Source: a virus
Strand: one strand, 5' to 3'
DNA length: 24,006 nucleotides
IMG/VR virus record: IMGVR_UViG_3300045945_000192
Location: 1 to 24,006 of that record
The notes beneath the pieces were generated by a model. It made no database searches. It was given only the letters and a program-made list of their open reading frames with translations, and had not been told where the DNA came from. A program made the translations under genes and the position numbers. This document shows positions 2,909 through 20,632 of the stretch, one piece after another (the stretch's first letter is position 1; each line of letters opens with the position of its first letter).

Positions 2909-3408
2909 ACGCTCCGCTGTTCACGCTGATTCGGCTGGCCGTCCGAGCCGAAGGCGCCTTCGGCGTGTTGATCCGGCACGCCGACCCCTCCGACGTCATC
3001 GGCGTGCCGTTCGCCGTCACGCTCGAGCGCACCTACGACAAGGCGGCCGACGCCGGCGTGAGCCAGGCGTACGGCGATGCCCTGGGGGCGCTGCAGTTCG
3101 TCAAGATCGTCGAGGGCCGTCACCGCTGCGTGCGGCGGTTCTTCGAGCGCGGCGGCTACTGGACCTACGACATCCAGACGCCCGAGCACACGGCGACGCT
3201 GCTGCACAAGGGCGTCCTCGAGCAGCACAGCGAGGGCTGCGTGCTCGTGGGCGAGTCCTACTCGATCCTCGCGGCCGCACCGGGGATCGCTGACAGCGGC
3301 CCGGGCCTCGCGGAGTTCCTCTCGTACGCGGGCAGCCGAGCCGAGTTCGACATGGACGTCGTCTCGGTTGGCGGCCCACTGCGGTTGTCCTTCGGCAAGG
3401 AGGCGTGA
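2905..3408 (+). CDS. DUF5675-like phage protein
   Basis: A 167-residue protein. The pattern GAFGVL near the N-terminus, VTLE at about 38, a central region of beta character, then LLHKG and HSEGCVLVGE matches my memory of the phage DUF5675 family, which has a conserved His and a Ser/Glu-Gly-Cys segment. The H...GC arrangement recalls YkuD-type L,D-transpeptidases, but the match is too loose to claim an enzyme. The start GTG overlaps the previous stop by 4 nt, with GAGGG about 9 nt upstream. It is followed directly by a lipoprotein and two membrane proteins, so a role at the cell envelope or in lysis is an inference from context. Confidence 0.65.
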   Translation: MNAPLFTLIRLAVRAEGAFGVLIRHADPSDVIGVPFAVTLERTYDKAADAGVSQAYGDALGALQFVKIVEGRHRCVRRFFERGGYWTYDIQTPEHTATLLHKGVLEQHSEGCVLVGESYSILAAAPGIADSGPGLAEFLSYAGSRAEFDMDVVSVGGPLRLSFGKEA

Positions 3409-4688
3409 TGCGCCGGCTGTTTGATCTCGTACTTGCTCGGGCCGCGCCGGTCTTGCCGCTGCTGGGGATGGCCCTGATCTTGTCGTGCGGCGGTCAGCTG
3501 CCGCCCGTCAGCATCTGCGCGACGGGCGAGGTCCTGACGCAGCAGGGATGCGTGTGCAAGCCGGGGCATGTGCGCGACACGGACGGCCGCGGGTGCCACG
3601 TCGAGGGTTCGTCGTCGACCACGACCAGCACGACGACGACCACGTCGTCGACGTCAACCACCACGACCACGACGCTTCCGCCCGTACCCACGCCGCCAAC
3701 GCCGACTCCGCCGACGCCCCGCCCAACGCCCGAGCCGACGCCGTCCCCGTGCGTCGCGGTCCCCATGCCCGCGGAGCCCGTGAGCGTGCGCGGCGCCGGC
3801 GCCGCGGGCTGGCACCGCTTCGACGGCCTCGCGTTCGCCCCCAGCGCGTGCGGCACGCCGGGCGAGAACCTCCGGTGCTTCCGTGACCGCGCGGCCGGTT
3901 CAGGCAGCGGCAGCGGCGCGGAGATCCTCTGGCCCCAGGACGAAACGGCCTGCTGGGCTCTCGGCCCGCACACGGAGCGAGAGCTGCGCAACGGCGCCCG
4001 ACACCCCGTCACGCGCTACGGCAAGACGATGGTCTGCCCCGTCCCGAACTACCCGGACGCCGGGGTGGGCTCGTTGCCGCACTGCTGGGACGCCTGGGGC
4101 CGGCGCGTGGACGACGCCGGCGGCGCGTGGATCCTCGACTCGTACCCCGAGGACCGCTTCACCGGCTGGTACCACGGCCTGTGTCCGCCCGCCACCATGC
4201 CGGCGTGCCCGCAGCCAAGCCCCACGCCCCGCCCGACGCCGGGCCCGCCGCTGAAGGCCTGCAGCCTGCCGGCGATGCCGGAGTCGGGAGCCAACGGCCG
4301 CGACTGCGACGGCCGACCGATCGACTCGCGCGAAACGGGGATCTACGGCTGCTGCCGGATGGTCGAGGACCACGGCGCATGGGCGGGGCCGAGCCAGTTC
4401 GCGGACGCGCTCGAGGCGGTGCTGGACGAAATGGTCAAGGACCGCGGAGACGTCGTGTATCCGCCGAATCAGCCGGGAGAAGTGAACGAGCGCCTGGAGG
4501 ACGCGTTCATGGCGGACCTCGTGGGCCGTCTTCGCGCCCGCGGCCTATGCGCCACGCGAGGCGGGCCAAGCGACGAGGTGGGGATCAAGGGCGAGAACGG
4601 ACGCAGCGAGCAATTCGACGTCGTGCTGTCCGAGGGCAAGGTCCGTCGCCGCGGGTACGTGGCCGTCTGCAGGCCCGCGAGGTTCTAG
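3408..4688 (+). CDS. Thr/Pro-rich lipoprotein with Cys-rich modules
   Basis: A 426-residue protein. The N-terminus is a signal peptide with a lipobox (LILSC, lipidated Cys27), so it should be exported and anchored in the membrane. Residues 37-63 hold four Cys in an EGF-like arrangement. Residues 68-90 are almost pure Ser/Thr and 91-114 a Pro-Thr repeat, a mucin-like stalk. A Trp/Cys-rich domain (125-268), a second Pro-Thr linker (269-281) and a C-terminal domain (285-426) follow; the last ends SEQFDVVLSEGKVRRRGYVAVCRPARF-like, split here as SEQFDVVLSEG and RRGYVAVCRPARF, a tail I associate with uncharacterised phage proteins. ATG 3408 is preferred to GTG 3405 because AAGGAGG ends 4 nt before it. 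Function unknown; surface exclusion or envelope remodelling are possibilities. Confidence 0.75.
   Translation: MRRLFDLVLARAAPVLPLLGMALILSCGGQLPPVSICATGEVLTQQGCVCKPGHVRDTDGRGCHVEGSSSTTTSTTTTTSSTSTTTTTTLPPVPTPPTPTPPTPRPTPEPTPSPCVAVPMPAEPVSVRGAGAAGWHRFDGLAFAPSACGTPGENLRCFRDRAAGSGSGSGAEILWPQDETACWALGPHTERELRNGARHPVTRYGKTMVCPVPNYPDAGVGSLPHCWDAWGRRVDDAGGAWILDSYPEDRFTGWYHGLCPPATMPACPQPSPTPRPTPGPPLKACSLPAMPESGANGRDCDGRPIDSRETGIYGCCRMVEDHGAWAGPSQFADALEAVLDEMVKDRGDVVYPPNQPGEVNERLEDAFMADLVGRLRARGLCATRGGPSDEVGIKGENGRSEQFDVVLSEGKVRRRGYVAVCRPARF
3616..3757 (+). repeat. Simple-sequence Thr/Ser and Pro/Thr codon tract
   Basis: ACG/ACC/TCG-type trinucleotide runs (about 3616-3680), then CCG-ACG/CCC-ACG type repeats to about 3757, encode the stalk of the lipoprotein. 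Such tracts can change length by slippage. A shorter Pro-Thr tract recurs at about 4212-4250. Confidence 0.6.
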
Positions 4689-4702
4689 CCAGGGAGGGAT
4701 TG

Positions 4703-5197
4703 GTGGGGAAGCTGCTGACGAATCTCGTGCTGCAGGTCTTCGCGGGTCGGTTCTTCCGCGACGTCGAGGCCGGGAGGCACGGGAGCGCCGCCTCTCGAGC
4801 GTACGCGTGGACCAAGGGCAGGAAGACGTGGATCGCGTTCCTCGTTGGCCTCGCTGCGGCCGCGGCGACGCAGTTCTTGCCCGAGGCGGCGCCGGCGCTC
4901 ACGGTCGTGACGGTCGTCCTCGGCCACGCGGGCCTCGTCGACAAGGGCTCGCGCGCCGCGGCGCCCCTCGTGCCCGACGGCGCGCGCGACTCCCTGCAGT
5001 GGATCCTCGCGACGGCCGCCTCGGCGTCCTACCTGGTGTTCGGCCTGCAGGAGCTGCTCGGGGGGATCCCAGGCTGCCCGCAGTGCTCGACCTGGTCGGA
5101 TCGGATCGGCCTGGCGACCGCGGCGCTCGGCGTCGCGACGTCGTGGCTCGCTGCGTACGTGGACCCCGGCAAGCGCGTTGTCACCTATCAGCGGTAG
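4703..5197 (+). CDS. Multi-pass membrane protein, holin candidate
   Basis: A 164-residue protein with four likely membrane segments at about 43-60, 64-80, 97-120 and 134-153, and a short basic C-terminus. The GTG start has GAGG 5 nt upstream. Size, number of segments and position between a DUF5675-like/lipoprotein pair and a single-pass coiled-coil membrane protein fit a phage holin, which makes inner-membrane pores at the end of infection. No sequence signature proves this; any small phage membrane protein would look similar. Confidence 0.5.
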   Translation: MGKLLTNLVLQVFAGRFFRDVEAGRHGSAASRAYAWTKGRKTWIAFLVGLAAAAATQFLPEAAPALTVVTVVLGHAGLVDKGSRAAAPLVPDGARDSLQWILATAASASYLVFGLQELLGGIPGCPQCSTWSDRIGLATAALGVATSWLAAYVDPGKRVVTYQR

Positions 5198-5206
5198 CGC
5201 GACGCC

Positions 5207-5818
5207 TTGCACACGCCCCCTGAGCCTGGCTGGTGGGATCGGCTGCTCGGGTTCGCGGACAAGAACCCCACGGGGTTCTTCGTGGCCGCGCTCGGCGTGG
5301 CCCTCGTCCTCTACTTCCTGCCCGCCGTCCTGCGCGCCTGGCGGAAGAACGGGAACGGTCACCGCGGCGGAGCCTCGGGCGAGACGGGCGACATCCCACG
5401 ACCGCGTGAAGAGCGCCGGCCCCAGCACGCCGGCGAGACCGACCGCATGCTGATCGAGCTGCGCGCGCACATGGACGCCCAGCACGAGGCCTTCTGCGAT
5501 CGGCTCGCTGCCCTCGAGGGCGCGATCAACGGCCCTGACGGCCTGCAGGTGCAGGTCTCGCGCGCCGGCGACGACGCCCGGGAGACCAAGGAGCTCGTCG
5601 TGGCGCTGCGGCGGCAGCTCGCGACGCTGATCGCTGGTGTCGCCGGCGAGGTCAAGGGCGCGCGCGAGGCCCTGTCCAAGCAACTGTTCGACTCCACGCG
5701 GGACGTCGCGAACGAGGGCGACAAGCTGCTCCAAGCCGCGACCGGCGTCGACGTCGAGAAGCTGCGGAGAGAGCTGCAGCTCCGCCGGAAACCCATCGGC
5801 GAAGCGAAAGCGACGTAG
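5207..5818 (+). CDS. Single-pass membrane protein with coiled coil (spanin-like or virion-associated?)
   Basis: A 203-residue protein from a TTG start 9 nt after the previous stop, with no strong Shine-Dalgarno. One membrane segment at about 19-40 (GFFVAALGVALVLYFLPAVL) is followed by basic residues, a flexible Gly/Arg-rich stretch, and a long helical region (about 75-195) with heptad-like Leu/Ala spacing. This topology resembles an inner-membrane spanin (Rz-type) or a holin-associated protein, and the neighbour upstream is a holin candidate. Function is inferred from topology and place only. Confidence 0.5.
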   Translation: MHTPPEPGWWDRLLGFADKNPTGFFVAALGVALVLYFLPAVLRAWRKNGNGHRGGASGETGDIPRPREERRPQHAGETDRMLIELRAHMDAQHEAFCDRLAALEGAINGPDGLQVQVSRAGDDARETKELVVALRRQLATLIAGVAGEVKGAREALSKQLFDSTRDVANEGDKLLQAATGVDVEKLRRELQLRRKPIGEAKAT

Positions 5819-5827
5819 GGGGCGGAG

Positions 5828-6319
5828 GTGGCCGTTGTCGAGAGTCACATCAAAGGGCCGAAGGACAGCACCGATGTCGATCACCACAAGATCGAGACGG
5901 TCACCGTCACGACGAGCCAGGGCGACGTCAAGCGCGAGGTGTCCGTCCTCGGCGACCCGGAGACGCCTGGCGCTCGGCAAGCCGTCCTCGCCGCGGCCCC
6001 GGGCAGCTCGGCCTTCGGCGGTGTCGTCAGGCCGATCGAGCGCCACCCCACCGCATCGGCGATCAGCCGCAAGGCCACCACGACGTCGAGCGCCGAGCTG
6101 CTGGCCGCGAACGCTGCTCGAGCTCGCGCGATCATCGTCAACGAGGCGACCGCGTTCCTGTACGTCAAGTACGGGACGGGCGCCTCGGCGACGGACTACA
6201 CCCACCGCGTGGCCCCCGGGGGCGAGCTCGTGCTCCCTGTGCCGGCCTATCTCGGTGCCTTGCACGGCGCGCTCGGCTCCGGGTCGAGCAGTGCTCAGGT
6301 GACGGAGGAGACCTGGTGA
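5828..6319 (+). CDS. Small virion-associated/appendage protein
   Basis: A 163-residue protein. GTG start with AGGGGG 5 nt upstream. The first ~50 residues are hydrophilic with TVTVTTSQGDVKREV, a segment I associate with phage surface proteins. The C-terminal half (ELLAANAARARAIIVNEAT...LYVKYGTGASATDYTHRV...PGGELVLPVPAYLGALHGALGSGS) matches a beta-rich phage domain often seen in structural or appendage proteins, usually labelled hypothetical. It overlaps the next appendage gene by 4 nt. No signal peptide here, unlike its two downstream neighbours. Confidence 0.6.
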   Translation: MAVVESHIKGPKDSTDVDHHKIETVTVTTSQGDVKREVSVLGDPETPGARQAVLAAAPGSSAFGGVVRPIERHPTASAISRKATTTSSAELLAANAARARAIIVNEATAFLYVKYGTGASATDYTHRVAPGGELVLPVPAYLGALHGALGSGSSSAQVTEETW

Positions 6320-7992
6320 AGAGCCTCACTCTAGTCCTGGTTGCCGTCGCGGTGGCCGCGGCGCCGGCGGCCGCGCAGCAGCCGACACCGGTTCGCGGCT
6401 GGGACGGCGCGCAGGCCTTCGACGTGGGCGATCTCTCGACCCTCTCGCTGCGCGTCGTGCTGGTGGGGAACCTGGCGGCCACGACGGTCACCGCCAACCA
6501 GGGCACGCCGAACAGCCTCGCCAACGCGTGGTCCGTCAAGGTCACCGACGGCACCGACTTGGTCAACGTGACGGCCGCCGGCGCTGTCCAGGTCGATGGG
6601 TCCGGCGTCACGCAGCCGATCTCCGCCGCGTCGTTGCCGTTGCCGAGCGGCGCGTCGACGCTCGGTGAGCAGCAGACGCAGACGACCGCGTTGCAGCTGA
6701 TCGACAACCTGCCCGTCACGCAGGGCTCGACGACGTCGGGGCAGTCGGGAGTGTTGGTGCAGGGGGCCGTGAGCACGGGCGCGCCCTCGTACACGAACGG
6801 CCAGACGTCGCCTCTCTCGATCCAGACCGACGGGTCTCAGCGCGTCGCGGTGACGAACACGCACACGGTCACTGCGAACGCCGGATCCGGCACGTTCACG
6901 GTCTCGGGCACGGTGACCGCGAACGCGGGCACGAACCTCAACACCTCGGCGCTCGCTCTCGATGCGACGCTCACGAACCGCCTGCCGTCGGGCTCGACGC
7001 CGGCGGACAACGAGTCGAACGCGATCACGACGTCTCGGCTCGGGGCGTTCAACTACGTCTTCGACGGATCGACATGGGACCGCTGGACGGGGACCGTCAC
7101 CTCGAACGCGGGCACGGGAACGTTCACCGTGGGCGGCACGGTGACCTCGAACGCGGGCACCGGGAACTTCAACGTGATCGGACCCGCGGCGGACGGCGCG
7201 GCGGTGAGCGGAAACCCCGTCAGGATCGCCGGGAAGGACGGGAGCGGCAACACGCAGGACGTCGCGACCGACACCTCGGGCGAGCTGCAGGTCGACGTGC
7301 TGACGCTGCCGAGCGTCACGGTCGGAACGTTCCCCGACAACGAGCCGTTCAACCTCAACCAGCTCGCCGGGAACACAGTGAGCAGCGGCAACGGTGCGGC
7401 GGGCACGGGGACGCTACGGGTGAGCGTCGCTTCGGACAGCACCGGCAACATCGCCACCATCGGGACGAGCGTGACGCCCGGCACCGGCGCCGCCAACTTG
7501 GGAAAGGCCGAGGACGCGTCGGTGGGCTCGGGGGACACCGGAGTGGCGGTCCTGGTCCAGCGCGAGGACACGCCGACGTCGACGGCCAGCGCCAACAACG
7601 AGTACATCTCGCCCAAGGCGAACAGCTTTGGCCACATCTTCGTGGCTGACATCTGCGAGGACCCGACGCTGACGACCAGCGTCGCCATCTCTCAGACGGC
7701 GCTTAACGGCAACGCCGAGCTCGTGGCGCTGACGGCCTCCCAGACGATCTACGTCTGCTCGTTCTCGATGGTCGTTAGCGCGGCCGCCAGCGTGCGCCTC
7801 GTCTACGGGACAGGCACGGCCTGCGCCACCGGAGAGACGGGCCTCACCGGCGCATACCCGTTCGCGGCGAACGGCGGCATCGCCCTCGGTGGCGGAGCCA
7901 TTCTGATGAAGACGGCCGTCAGCAACGCGCTGTGCATCGAGACGTCGGCGGCCGTGAATGTTCACGGCCACGTCACGTACGCGAAGTTCTGA
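6316..7992 (+). CDS. Beta-repeat appendage/tail-surface protein with N-terminal signal peptide
   Basis: A 558-residue protein rich in Thr, Gly, Ser, Val and Asn, as in beta-helical phage fibres and spikes. A 15-residue repeat (TVTxNAGxGxFxVxG) occurs at 184-198, partly at 199-206, and in tandem at 260-289. The C-terminal ~110 residues (from about 445) look like a compact beta domain of the kind that ends phage tail appendages, with several Cys. The N-terminus is a textbook Sec signal, MKSLTLVLVAVAVAAAPAAAQQ, with a likely AxA cleavage near residue 20. That is odd for a virion protein, which assembles in the cytoplasm. The GTG start overlaps the upstream stop by 4 nt. Host receptor binding is a reasonable but untested guess. 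Confidence 0.65.
   Translation: MKSLTLVLVAVAVAAAPAAAQQPTPVRGWDGAQAFDVGDLSTLSLRVVLVGNLAATTVTANQGTPNSLANAWSVKVTDGTDLVNVTAAGAVQVDGSGVTQPISAASLPLPSGASTLGEQQTQTTALQLIDNLPVTQGSTTSGQSGVLVQGAVSTGAPSYTNGQTSPLSIQTDGSQRVAVTNTHTVTANAGSGTFTVSGTVTANAGTNLNTSALALDATLTNRLPSGSTPADNESNAITTSRLGAFNYVFDGSTWDRWTGTVTSNAGTGTFTVGGTVTSNAGTGNFNVIGPAADGAAVSGNPVRIAGKDGSGNTQDVATDTSGELQVDVLTLPSVTVGTFPDNEPFNLNQLAGNTVSSGNGAAGTGTLRVSVASDSTGNIATIGTSVTPGTGAANLGKAEDASVGSGDTGVAVLVQREDTPTSTASANNEYISPKANSFGHIFVADICEDPTLTTSVAISQTALNGNAELVALTASQTIYVCSFSMVVSAAASVRLVYGTGTACATGETGLTGAYPFAANGGIALGGGAILMKTAVSNALCIETSAAVNVHGHVTYAKF
6865..7182 (+). repeat. 45-bp imperfect coding repeats in the appendage gene
   Basis: The unit coding TVTxNAGxGxFxVxG is found at 6865-6909, partly at 6910-6933, and twice in tandem at 7093-7182. 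Shared DNA cores such as GCGAACGCGGGCAC and TCGAACGCGGGCAC show recent duplication. Confidence 0.65.
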
Positions 7993-8786
7993 TGCGGCGG
8001 CTTCTCCTCGCCTGCGCGTTCCTGCTGCTGGCGGAGCCTGCGGCCGCGACGTTCGCGCGCGTCGGCTCGCTGGGGACAGGCACGTCGACCACTGCGGGAA
8101 CCTCGCTGACAGTCACGACCAGCGCCACCCTCGAGGCCGGCAATGTCGGGGTGTGCGCGATCGGCAAGGACGAGACGGGTACGGGGACGACCGACGGCGA
8201 CCTCGGCCAGGTCACGAACGTCACGGACGGCTCGAGCAACCGATGGGTCAAGGCAATCGAGTTCTGCAACGCGCAGACATCGACGGCCGCGGACGGCGCG
8301 TGTATCGACATCTGGTGGACCAAGGCGACCACGCAGTTGACGTCGGGCGGCACCATCACGATCACGCTGTCAGCCTCCACGACGTCGAAGGCCGCGACGT
8401 GCGACGAGTTCACGATGGACACGAACCTTTCGCCGTACATGGCAGCGGGGCAGAACGGACTCGCGAACGACGCGGCCGATCCGGGCAGCATGACGGCCGC
8501 GACGACTGTGAGCAGGCCGCACCTGTTCGTCCGTGCGAGCGCTTGCGAGTCCAATACCACGACTTATACGGCCGACACGGACTACACGGGCGGAGGAAAC
8601 GCGACCGCCGGCACCGGAACGGCGGCTACCTCCATGGGAGCGCGCATCGAGACGCGCGTGGCGACCGAGGCCACCTCGGCCGCGAGCGACCCCACGTACG
8701 CGACGGCCGACTGCGCCTCTGCGATGGCGGCGCTGAACGAGGATCCCGGCTGCTTCCTGCAGCTGCTCGGGGTCGGGTGTAGATAG
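7992..8786 (+). CDS. Secreted-type or virion-surface protein, Ig/lectin-like beta domain
   Basis: A 264-residue protein whose ATG overlaps the previous stop (TGATG). A clear signal peptide (RRLLLACAFLLLAEPAAA, cleavage near residue 20) leads a Thr/Ala/Gly-rich domain. Its pattern is AGTSLTVTTSATLEAGNVGVCAIGKDE, then VTDGSSNRWVKA, DIWWTKATTQLTSGGTITITLSAST, as in beta-sandwich domains common in environmental phage structural proteins. Eight or more Cys residues would suit disulphides in an exported protein. It lies in the same overlapping operon as the beta-repeat protein. Family not firmly identified; an exported adhesin-like moron protein is the alternative to a virion protein. Confidence 0.6.
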   Translation: MRRLLLACAFLLLAEPAAATFARVGSLGTGTSTTAGTSLTVTTSATLEAGNVGVCAIGKDETGTGTTDGDLGQVTNVTDGSSNRWVKAIEFCNAQTSTAADGACIDIWWTKATTQLTSGGTITITLSASTTSKAATCDEFTMDTNLSPYMAAGQNGLANDAADPGSMTAATTVSRPHLFVRASACESNTTTYTADTDYTGGGNATAGTGTAATSMGARIETRVATEATSAASDPTYATADCASAMAALNEDPGCFLQLLGVGCR

Positions 8787-10873: not shown

Positions 10874-12752
10874 CGGCGGCCGCGTCAAGCGCGCGTGGGG
10901 TCTCGGGCTTCGTCCGGAGCCGGACGTCCTCGTGAGCGACTGGGCGGACAAGTACCGCGTTCTCCCTCAGAAGTCGAGCGCGGAACCCGGGCCTTGGCGG
11001 ACGTCGCGGACGCCCTATCTGCGCGAGATCATGGACGCGCTGTCGGCAACGAGCGACGTCGAGGAAGTCGTGTTCATGAAGGCCGCGCAGGTCGCCGGCA
11101 GCGAGGCCCTGCTCAACCTCCTCGGCTACATCATCGACCACGCGCCCGGGCCCACGATGCTGGTGCAGCCCACCGTCGAGCTCGCGAAGCGGTTCTCACG
11201 GCAGCGGATCGAGCCTCTGCTGACGTCGACGCCGCGGCTCCAGGTCAAGGTCGGACCCCAGCGGAGCCGCGACAGGCGGGCGTCGATGCTGTCGAAGGAG
11301 TTCTTGGGCGGCGTGCTCGTCGTGACGGGCGCCAACAGCGCGGTCGGCCTGCGCTCGATGCCGGCGCGCTGGTTGCTGCTCGACGAGATCGACGGCTACC
11401 CCCTCGACGTCGACGGAGAGGGCGCGCCGATCGACCTGGCCGAGGCGCGGCAGCGGACCTTCGCGCGCCGGAAGACCGTCAAGGTCAGCACGCCCACCAT
11501 CGCCGGCGTTTCGGCGATCGAGCGGGCCTACCTCGCCACCGACCAGCGGCGGTACTACGTGCCGTGTCCGCACTGCGGGGCGATGCAGCCGCTCGAGTGG
11601 GACCGCCTGACCTGGTCGAGGTTGAGGCTCCCGCCGGCCAAGGCCGTCTACGTCTGTCGCGCATGCGAGGAGCGGATCGCCGATCACCAGAAGGCGCGGA
11701 TGCTCGAGCGCGGGGAGTGGAGGGCGGAGAACCCCAAGGCGGATCCGCGCGTGCGCGGCTACCACCTGAGCGCGTTGTATTCGCCCGTCGGCTGGCTCAG
11801 CTGGGGCGCGATCGCGGAGAAGCACGTCGCCGCCAAGAAGAACCCCGAGAAGTTGCGGGTCTTCGTGAACACGGTCCTCGGGGAGACGTGGACCGAGCGC
11901 GGCGAGGCGCCGGAGTGGGAGCGCCTCTGGGATCGGCGGGAGCCGTACCAGCTCGGGACCGTTCCGCAGGGAGGCCTGTTCCTCACGGCGGGCGTCGACG
12001 TCCAGAAGGACCGGCTCGTCGTGGAGATCGTCGCATGGGGCCGCGGCAAGGTCTCCTGGTCGATCGACTACGGCGTGATCCCGGGCGACACAGCCGACCT
12101 GGTCAACGGGCCGTGGCCCCAGCTGGACGCGCTCCTGGCGCGCACCTTCGCTCACGACGCCGGCGTCGAGCTGGCGGTCAAGATGCTGGCCGTGGACTCG
12201 GGCTACAACACGCAACACGTCTACACCTGGGCGCGAAAGTACCCGCTCAACCGCGTCATCGCGGTGAAGGGGCAGCCGTCCGGGGGGATGCTCATCGGCA
12301 CGCCTTCCACCGTGGACATCACCCTCCGCGGCCGGCGGCCGATCTACGGCTACAAGGTGTGGCCGGTGACCGGGTCCGTCGCCAAGAGCGAGCTCTACGG
12401 CTGTCTCCGCCTCGAGCGGCCGGCCGACGGGGCGCCGTTTCCTCCGGGCTGGTGCCACTTCCCCCAGTACGACGAGGACTTCTTCCGCCAGCTGACCGCC
12501 GAGCAGCTCGTCACGCACAAGTCGAGGACCGGGTTCGTGCGCCTCGAGTGGGAGCTCATCGCGGGCCGGGAGAACCACACCCTCGACGCCCGCGTTTACG
12601 CGCGGGCCGCGGCCGCGCTCGTGGGCCTCGATCGGTTCCAGGAGCCCGACTGGGCCGCGCTCGAGCGCTCCGTGTCCGCGGATCCGGCGCCCCCCGCGCC
12701 GGCGGCGCCGACGCGCGAGCCCTGGCTGAACCGGCACCGGAGGCGCGGGTGA
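10866..12752 (+). CDS. Terminase large subunit, lambda GpA family
   Basis: A 628-residue protein, close to the usual GpA length. It is the ATP-driven motor and nuclease that cuts and packages DNA into the prohead. Typical N-terminus at 26-50: WADKYRVLPQKSSAEPGPWR followed by TSRTPY. The deviant Walker A of GpA enzymes is at 71-80 (MKAAQVAGSE) and Walker B at 168-175 (RWLLLDEID). A zinc ribbon uses C234xxC237 and C264xxC267. The RNase-H-like nuclease carries D378 (GVDVQKDRLVVEIVAWG) and D444 (AVDSGYNT). GTG 10866 is chosen: it follows GGAG by 10 nt and overlaps TerS, and the conserved region starts ~25 residues later. Longer forms upstream are frame shadows of TerS. Confidence 0.96.
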   Translation: MASGGRVKRAWGLGLRPEPDVLVSDWADKYRVLPQKSSAEPGPWRTSRTPYLREIMDALSATSDVEEVVFMKAAQVAGSEALLNLLGYIIDHAPGPTMLVQPTVELAKRFSRQRIEPLLTSTPRLQVKVGPQRSRDRRASMLSKEFLGGVLVVTGANSAVGLRSMPARWLLLDEIDGYPLDVDGEGAPIDLAEARQRTFARRKTVKVSTPTIAGVSAIERAYLATDQRRYYVPCPHCGAMQPLEWDRLTWSRLRLPPAKAVYVCRACEERIADHQKARMLERGEWRAENPKADPRVRGYHLSALYSPVGWLSWGAIAEKHVAAKKNPEKLRVFVNTVLGETWTERGEAPEWERLWDRREPYQLGTVPQGGLFLTAGVDVQKDRLVVEIVAWGRGKVSWSIDYGVIPGDTADLVNGPWPQLDALLARTFAHDAGVELAVKMLAVDSGYNTQHVYTWARKYPLNRVIAVKGQPSGGMLIGTPSTVDITLRGRRPIYGYKVWPVTGSVAKSELYGCLRLERPADGAPFPPGWCHFPQYDEDFFRQLTAEQLVTHKSRTGFVRLEWELIAGRENHTLDARVYARAAAALVGLDRFQEPDWAALERSVSADPAPPAPAAPTREPWLNRHRRRG

Positions 12753-12934
12753 AGGCCCTCGACGTCGCCGGCACTGGCGTGCGGAAGCCGTTGAGCGCCG
12801 CGAAGGTCGTCGTCACGCCACCGGCGCCGCGGCGGGCTACGAACGATCCGTTCTACTCGGATCGCGAGTTCCGCGCGCTGCTCGAGGGCCGGCAGCGGTG
12901 GCTCGGCCACCGTCGGAGGGGTTGGCTGCGATGA
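12749..12934 (+). CDS. Small basic hypothetical protein
   Basis: A 61-residue protein with a GTG start overlapping the TerL stop by 4 nt. Basic and Pro/Arg-rich; the middle NDPFYSDREFRALLEGRQRWL looks like a helix. No family recognised. The overlap chain supports it as a real gene. Confidence 0.5.
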   Translation: MKALDVAGTGVRKPLSAAKVVVTPPAPRRATNDPFYSDREFRALLEGRQRWLGHRRRGWLR

Positions 12935-12945
12935 GGAGGGAGTCG

Positions 12946-13104
12946 ATGACCGAGAAGAAGCCGAAGCAGGAGAAGGACCAGGACAAGGACAGCGAGGCCG
13001 AGAAGGCGCGCCCGGCCGCGCCGGCGATCGACGGCGAGATCGACGGCGTGCAAACGCCGAACCCGATCTCCGATCCGAGTCAGAAGGCCCCGAAGGAGGA
13101 CTGA
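12946..13104 (+). CDS. Small highly charged hypothetical protein
   Basis: A 52-residue protein (MTEKKPKQEKDQDKDSEAEK at the start), almost all Lys/Glu/Asp/Ala/Pro, probably disordered. ATG 12946 has AGGAGGG 5 nt upstream and is preferred to ATG 12931, which lies before that site. Directly abuts the next gene. No family recognised. Confidence 0.6.
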   Translation: MTEKKPKQEKDQDKDSEAEKARPAAPAIDGEIDGVQTPNPISDPSQKAPKED

Positions 13105-20020: not shown

Positions 20021-20632
20021 ATGAAGACCTTGAAGTCCTGCCCGCGGCGGTCGCTGACGGCCCTGGCCCTGCTCTGCCTGCTCGCCGTCGGACTGGGGAG
20101 CCTGACTCAGACCGGCGACGTCGCGGCCGCGTCGCTGACGTCCCGCATCGAGATCCAAGTCACCGCGAAGCTCAGCTCGCAGCTCGACCTCGTCGCGGCT
20201 GAAGCGCCCCTCGCCAAGCAGTCGTTGCTGGACCTGACGAACGGCACGGGCACCAACCAGGCCAACACGGTGTGGAGCGACCAGCGGACGATCGCGGCTT
20301 CCACGACCGAGGACCTCGACCTGGCGGGCGGCGGTCTCACGGACGCCTTCGGCGTCGCCTTCGCCCCAGTCAAGCTCAAGGCCCTCATCGTCTGCGCCTC
20401 GAGCGGGAACACGAACAACGTCGTGCTGGGCGGGGATGCCAACGCCGTGCCGATCCTGAGCGCGGCCGCGACGACGGTAACGATCCAGCCGAAGGGATGC
20501 TTCGTGCTGACCGCGCCGGCGACCGCGGGGATCGCCGTGACGGCGGGCACCGGCGACATCCTCCAGGTCGCCAACAGCGGCGCCGGCACTTCCGTCACCT
20601 ACGACATCATCGTCATCGGCACCACCAGCTGA
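20021..20632 (+). CDS. Virion-type protein carrying an N-terminal signal peptide
   Basis: A 203-residue protein between the tail tube and the chaperone genes. Its body (LLDLTNGTGTNQANTVWSDQ, RTIAASTTEDLDLAGGGLTD, VKLKALIVCASSGNTNNVVL, ITAGTGDILQVANSG-like end) matches a beta-rich family I know from many phages and metagenomic contigs, of unknown exact virion role; homologues as I recall start at the SLTSRIEI-type segment. Here an extra ~38-residue leader comes first: basic MKTLKSCPRRS, a hydrophobic LTALALLCLLAVGLG core, and a VAAAS cleavage-like site. GGGAGAG precedes the ATG. Either the leader is real and the protein is exported, or it is a hydrophobic N-arm. Confidence 0.65.
   Translation: MKTLKSCPRRSLTALALLCLLAVGLGSLTQTGDVAAASLTSRIEIQVTAKLSSQLDLVAAEAPLAKQSLLDLTNGTGTNQANTVWSDQRTIAASTTEDLDLAGGGLTDAFGVAFAPVKLKALIVCASSGNTNNVVLGGDANAVPILSAAATTVTIQPKGCFVLTAPATAGIAVTAGTGDILQVANSGAGTSVTYDIIVIGTTS

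Follow-up and report, generated by a model that had tools for sequence, protein, structure and literature searches.

Virion parts of tailed phages assemble in the cytoplasm, and the question that this locus raises is why two neighbouring genes of a tailed phage, both coding for fibre-like proteins, should begin with what look like Sec signal peptides. The window, a virus record of 24,006 bases, is identified as tailed-phage DNA by a recognisable portal (phrog_21), capsid-protease fusion, head decoration protein, major tail protein and tape measure, and the two genes have small membrane-protein genes on one side and the terminase genes on the other (Table 1). Neither product matched a PHROG or Pfam family, and no defence-system match was found.

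Table 1. Positions of the two leader-bearing genes, their parts and other relevant genes in the window
Feature	Position	Strand	Remarks
Cys-rich protein	3408..4688	+	19 Cys; hydrophobic N-terminus, lipobox-like ILSC, S/T/P linker; counterpart of L041 1352
Leaderless partner gene just ahead of 6316	5828..6319	+	homologous to L041 3867
Shine-Dalgarno-like GGAGGAG before GTG 6316	6304..6310	+	
Leader-bearing fibre-like protein	6316..7992	+	558 aa; leader MKSLTLVLVAVAVAAAPAAA, then Q; C-terminal jelly roll (modelled), 4 conserved Cys
Predicted Sec leader of fibre-like protein	6316..6375	+	
C-terminal jelly-roll domain of 6316 product	7618..7989	+	four cysteines, C1-C4
Leader-bearing beta-sandwich protein (gene 2)	7992..8786	+	264 aa; 8 mature Cys; C-terminal motif LLGVGCR
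Predicted Sec leader of gene 2	7992..8048	+	MRRLLLACAFLLLAEPAAA
Third leader-bearing gene, phrog_22694 domain behind Sec leader	20021..20632	+	tail module, after major tail protein, before tail-assembly genes

Leaders, start sites and folds in the window

The initial annotation described two adjacent genes with signal-peptide starts, and both were recovered as described, with coupled starts: the GTG of the 6316 gene overlaps the stop of the 5828 gene (GTGA), and the ATG of the 7992 gene overlaps the stop preceding it (TGATG). Leaders were scored with a home-made, rule-based scorer that looks at n-, h- and c-regions, that is, for a basic n-region, a hydrophobic h-region and small residues at −3 and −1. 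Calibrated on E. coli K-12, it found 22 of 23 Sec substrates and flagged 2 of 94 cytoplasmic proteins; N-terminal membrane anchors are not told apart from leaders, 14 of 35 such anchors having been flagged in the same organism. Three of the 35 called genes of the window (6316, 7992 and 20021) were flagged as having leaders of the Sec/signal-peptidase-I type, against none of 106 non-coding ORFs in the window and 45 of 4416 (1.0%) over all loci, and the leader genes of the window are therefore more than chance would give. This rate among spurious ORFs also disposes of chance hydrophobic N-termini of GC-rich ORFs as a source of the leaders. The signal-peptide prediction that the initial annotation had proposed thus turned out positive for both of its genes; its count was one short, the gene at 20021–20632 having escaped it, as had the lipoprotein-like, Cys-rich gene at 3408–4688.

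A start site downstream of the leader, which had been named as an observation that would speak against export, was looked for in the sequence, and no good start codon lies there. Start codons between the leaders and the folded parts are only weak and lack a Shine-Dalgarno (SD) sequence. Since the next in-frame start past the leader is codon 37, without SD, in the 6316 gene, and codon 54, within the well-modelled beta-sandwich, in the 7992 gene, a late start is unlikely for the former and untenable for the latter.

The C-terminal domain of the fibre protein was modelled as a jelly roll, nearest to which are Ena1B pili (Z 8.2) and phage cement proteins (Z about 8), both near background. The likeness to the Ena1B endospore appendages and to the cement protein of H. 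pylori phage KHP40 is perhaps one of common fold only, because identity is 10–15% and Z near background. Gene 2 was modelled as a beta-sandwich, with mycobacteriophage minor tail proteins among its nearest viral models; its comparison with the PDB gave nothing above Z 5.7, with which a known family is still compatible.

Residues 38–202 of the 20021 product match positions 4–169 of the 170 of the phrog_22694 profile (E 3.3e-43), the likeness thus covering the whole domain. Leaderless homologues starting at the domain occur in Streptomyces phage Keanu (gp9), Microcystis phage Mae-JY28, Bradyrhizobium ppBeUSDA76-1 and pMLP1, and in the first three, which are cultured and annotated phages, the gene follows soon after the (probable) major capsid gene, whereas in the window it belongs to the tail module and begins with a leader. 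Within this family, the leader is common to L042 and L043 and missing from L044, and L043 lacks both of the cysteines found in the mature window protein.

Homologues, paired cysteines and tandem clusters

A survey of homologues with and without leaders, likewise proposed earlier, brought up both kinds. Scanning with the 6316 protein gave a first set of 39 viral loci, and scanning with its C-terminal domain a second set of 57. In the first set, 23 fibre homologues have a leader by the automatic rule and 4 more by eye, the leaders varying in sequence and keeping their design in most complete loci; a minority (L021, L028, L029 and L037–L040) start directly at mature-type sequence. The automatic rule finds a leader in 35 distinct loci of the second set, the rest being cut by the contig end (6), leader-bearing by eye (L064, L091, L097 and L100) or frameshifted (L084). 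One of the two patterns used for the second scan contains a cysteine, so that cysteine content in that set is biased and leader presence is not. In all, leader-bearing fibre homologues occur in about 60 phage contigs, too many for a one-off oddity of one phage, and their starts are coupled and mostly SD-preceded. The leaderless controls are few (6–9 loci). A search of genome contigs added two MAG loci, while plasmids and 299 genomes of one phylum gave no match, the latter result being uninformative as to host. In one locus of the survey, L013, the adjacent genes 4515–4916 and 4924–6753 have an identical 19-residue leader (MRVGWIGLGLWLCAVTAWA) ahead of different mature sequences, the leader having apparently been duplicated as a cassette.

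Four cysteines are nearly fixed among 66 distinct C-terminal domains. C1 and C2 are both present in 59 and both absent in 3 of the complete cases, with one exception (L036), and C3 and C4 occur together in 64 and alone in none; the leaderless L057 and L058 have none of the four. The 7992 family likewise has a cysteine pair that the window and L015 keep and L041 and L003 lack. Pairs kept or lost together are what one would expect of disulfides, which as a rule are stable only in exported proteins.

Leader genes also cluster, with as many as five in a row. Two leader genes stand next to each other in 80 instances, where within-locus shuffling leads one to expect 35 (maximum 48 in 500 permutations). 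The scorer flagged the gene that follows the fibre in 42 of 60 leader loci and 0 of 6 leaderless loci, compared with 38 of 509 other genes; because the loci are partly related, these counts are not independent. Other members of the module are ConA/LamG lectins, GH28/pectate-lyase beta-helices and proteins of tail-spike or virion families. A C-terminal LLxGVG was found in 19 downstream members where 1.6 were expected, and perhaps serves as a docking peptide. In the form [LM][LM]xGVG it closes the gene that follows the fibre, leader or not (window 8754–8783; L002, L003, L015, L051, L058 and others). A leader-specific role of the motif is ruled out, since ctMEh928, a podovirus with a leaderless module, also ends in LGVG.

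L041 has the gene order of the window: a putatively exported Cys-rich gene comes first, then membrane genes, the leaderless base gene, the fibre with its leader, gene 2 with its leader and the terminase genes. Its portal and terminase family differ from those of the window. The 5828 product matches that of L041 3867 (E 2e-20), which in turn matches the N-terminus of the leaderless L037 fibre (E 7e-14), and is probably a fibre base. From these matches we infer a split fibre in phages of the window/L041 type, of which the base would be kept cytoplasmic and the distal part exported. The Cys-rich genes, 3408–4688 in the window and 1352–2410 in L041, occupy the same place in both phages and share hydrophobic N-termini and S/T/P-rich or P/T-rich linkers, the homology of their products being weak (E 8e-6); the ILSC of the 3408 product was read by eye, and its L at −2 is unusual compared with the canonical lipobox.

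Leader modules and leaderless relatives

The complete podovirus ctLwi270 carries its module between the portal and capsid genes, with four consecutive leader genes, for a repeat fibre, a 195-aa protein, a ConA lectin and a GH28/tail-spike protein. Its tail-collar fibre (PF07484, E 3e-26) starts with MIVLVLLFLLLSISSADA followed by GTITRP, behind AGGAGG, a clear SD; this leader, in which no basic residue occurs, escaped the rule and was recognised by eye. The collar fibre matches 334 phage records, which among the matches listed are mostly annotated as minor tail protein or tail fibre. One of these, a cyanophage tail fibre, has the leaderless start MADARISQLPAATTVASADIIPF, and by eye a sequence resembling it (ANSRITELTELTTPATGDMLEIVD) directly follows the leader in some leader genes, for instance L012 8179. 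At 12031–13095, ctLwi270 encodes a leaderless protein with a weak tail-fibre match (E 1e-5). The GH28/tail-spike gene of L122 (MW202554.1; 24079–25677, minus strand) has an annotated start that lies too late: an in-frame start at 25677 adds a leader and overlaps the preceding stop.

Homologues also lie inside virion gene modules, in ctMEh928, L119 and L021. The leaderless modules (the ctMEh928 fibre with its LLGVG gene, L021, and the gene-2 homologues of L119 and L120) are of the same kind, repeat fibre and beta-sandwich protein in tandem, and that of ctMEh928 shares the C-terminal LGVG motif; they differ from leader modules in having no leader and few cysteines. No gene of ctMEh928 was flagged by the scorer. 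In L119 and L120 the gene-2 homologues start exactly at the domain, have a single Cys and are placed between the portal and capsid genes; in both (L119 4824–6785, L120 2296–4767) repeats of about 20 residues, ending FYAATV, form a long array behind the domain. From sequence comparison, the fibre, lectin and spike genes are best read as a mobile module that is widespread among unrelated tailed phages and not peculiar to one.

Export and the possible fate of the exported proteins

Secretion signals combined with conserved paired cysteines make it almost certain, as far as sequence can tell, that the module proteins are exported from the cytoplasm, and strong support comes from the independent occurrence of leaders in many phages, from the tandem arrangement of the genes that have them, and from cysteine pairs confined to leader forms. 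What the proteins would do once exported is a matter on which we hold a tentative preference, namely that they are a Sec-exported module, oxidised outside the cytoplasm, that docks late onto virions as receptor-binding apparatus. Proteins of fibre, lectin and tail-spike type would be made as late genes with cleavable Sec leaders and would acquire disulfides as they fold beyond the cytoplasm, which in a Gram-negative host means the periplasm; with their genes embedded among late genes, they should therefore accumulate there while virions assemble inside. Lysis would free them together with progeny virions, on which they would dock, onto a leaderless base such as the 5828 product, as receptor- or glycan-binding appendages. 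Cleavage, oxidative folding, release at lysis and virion docking are all steps that we infer. We know of no precedent for docking after lysis in tailed phages, and no report of such a module was found in the literature searched, which included few subscription journals and preprints.

Docking would explain the export of classical fibre, spike and collar domains beside a base that has no leader; a soluble role as decoy or depolymerase, which we rank somewhat behind it as a serious possibility, explains the lectin and glycanase content equally well. The proteins would then never be on virions and would act as soluble adhesins, lectins or glycan hydrolases that the infected cell secretes or lysis sets free, either masking receptors (to block superinfection or protect progeny from debris) or stripping capsule or biofilm. 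Their lectin-, pectinase- and fibre-like domains and the lack of a visible membrane anchor after the leader fit this, and phage-encoded exported surface proteins are known: lambda Lom is an outer membrane protein with a signal peptide whose gene lies among tail genes (PMC12309495), although it is a beta-barrel and not fibre-like. Against soluble use stand the leader that ctLwi270 has even on a tail-collar fibre, the leaderless base gene kept beside the exported fibre, and the leaderless relatives in virion modules; the last, being virion-type genes, give real weight to addition to virions outside the cytoplasm.

Lysis-cassette accessory proteins acting on the envelope, after the manner of XepA of PBSX, are a decidedly unlikely reading. 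XepA and YomS (B. subtilis prophages PBSX/SPbeta) are likewise phage beta-sandwich proteins, and XepA is exported while the phage develops and does not occur in mature particles (PMC6834076), which makes it a precedent for exported phage proteins that stay off the particle; YomS is among the jelly-roll matches (6i5o, Z 7.2), and in both the window and L041 the module comes after genes for small membrane proteins. However, the XepA fold match is weak (6i56, Z 3.5), phmmer of both window proteins against PDB sequences gave no XepA or YomS match, and the position of the module varies, being different in ctLwi270; XepA lies in a lytic cassette, and the part of its description consulted mentions for it no leader, repeats, conserved cysteines or tandem cluster. 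Lysogenic conversion, with prophage-made proteins changing the host surface, is very unlikely: an integrase is present in 8 of 23 IMG/VR contigs tested, but many carriers are without one (contigs may be partial), and the genes are coupled to their neighbours by overlapping stops and starts and form no separate unit. Least likely of all is that the leaders stay unprocessed, as hydrophobic N-termini of cytoplasmic virion proteins, or reflect start-site errors. The inability of the scorer to tell leaders from anchors leaves some room for this, but signal-peptidase motifs end the hydrophobic stretch in gene after gene, and the start codons and the cysteine pairs described above argue against it.

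For annotation, the consequence is that current gene calls truncate some leaders, as in the GH28 gene of ctLwi270, and label the proteins ordinary fibres. Beyond the window, we regard it as possible, with reserve, that in some tailed phages assembly of the receptor-binding apparatus takes place outside the cytoplasm, by way of Sec, periplasmic disulfides and attachment to virions during or after lysis. Widespread leader fibres with disulfide-like cysteine signatures would mean either an extracytoplasmic assembly step or secreted copies of receptor-binding domains made for another purpose; if docking holds true, Caudoviricetes would have a second, extracytoplasmic route of assembly.
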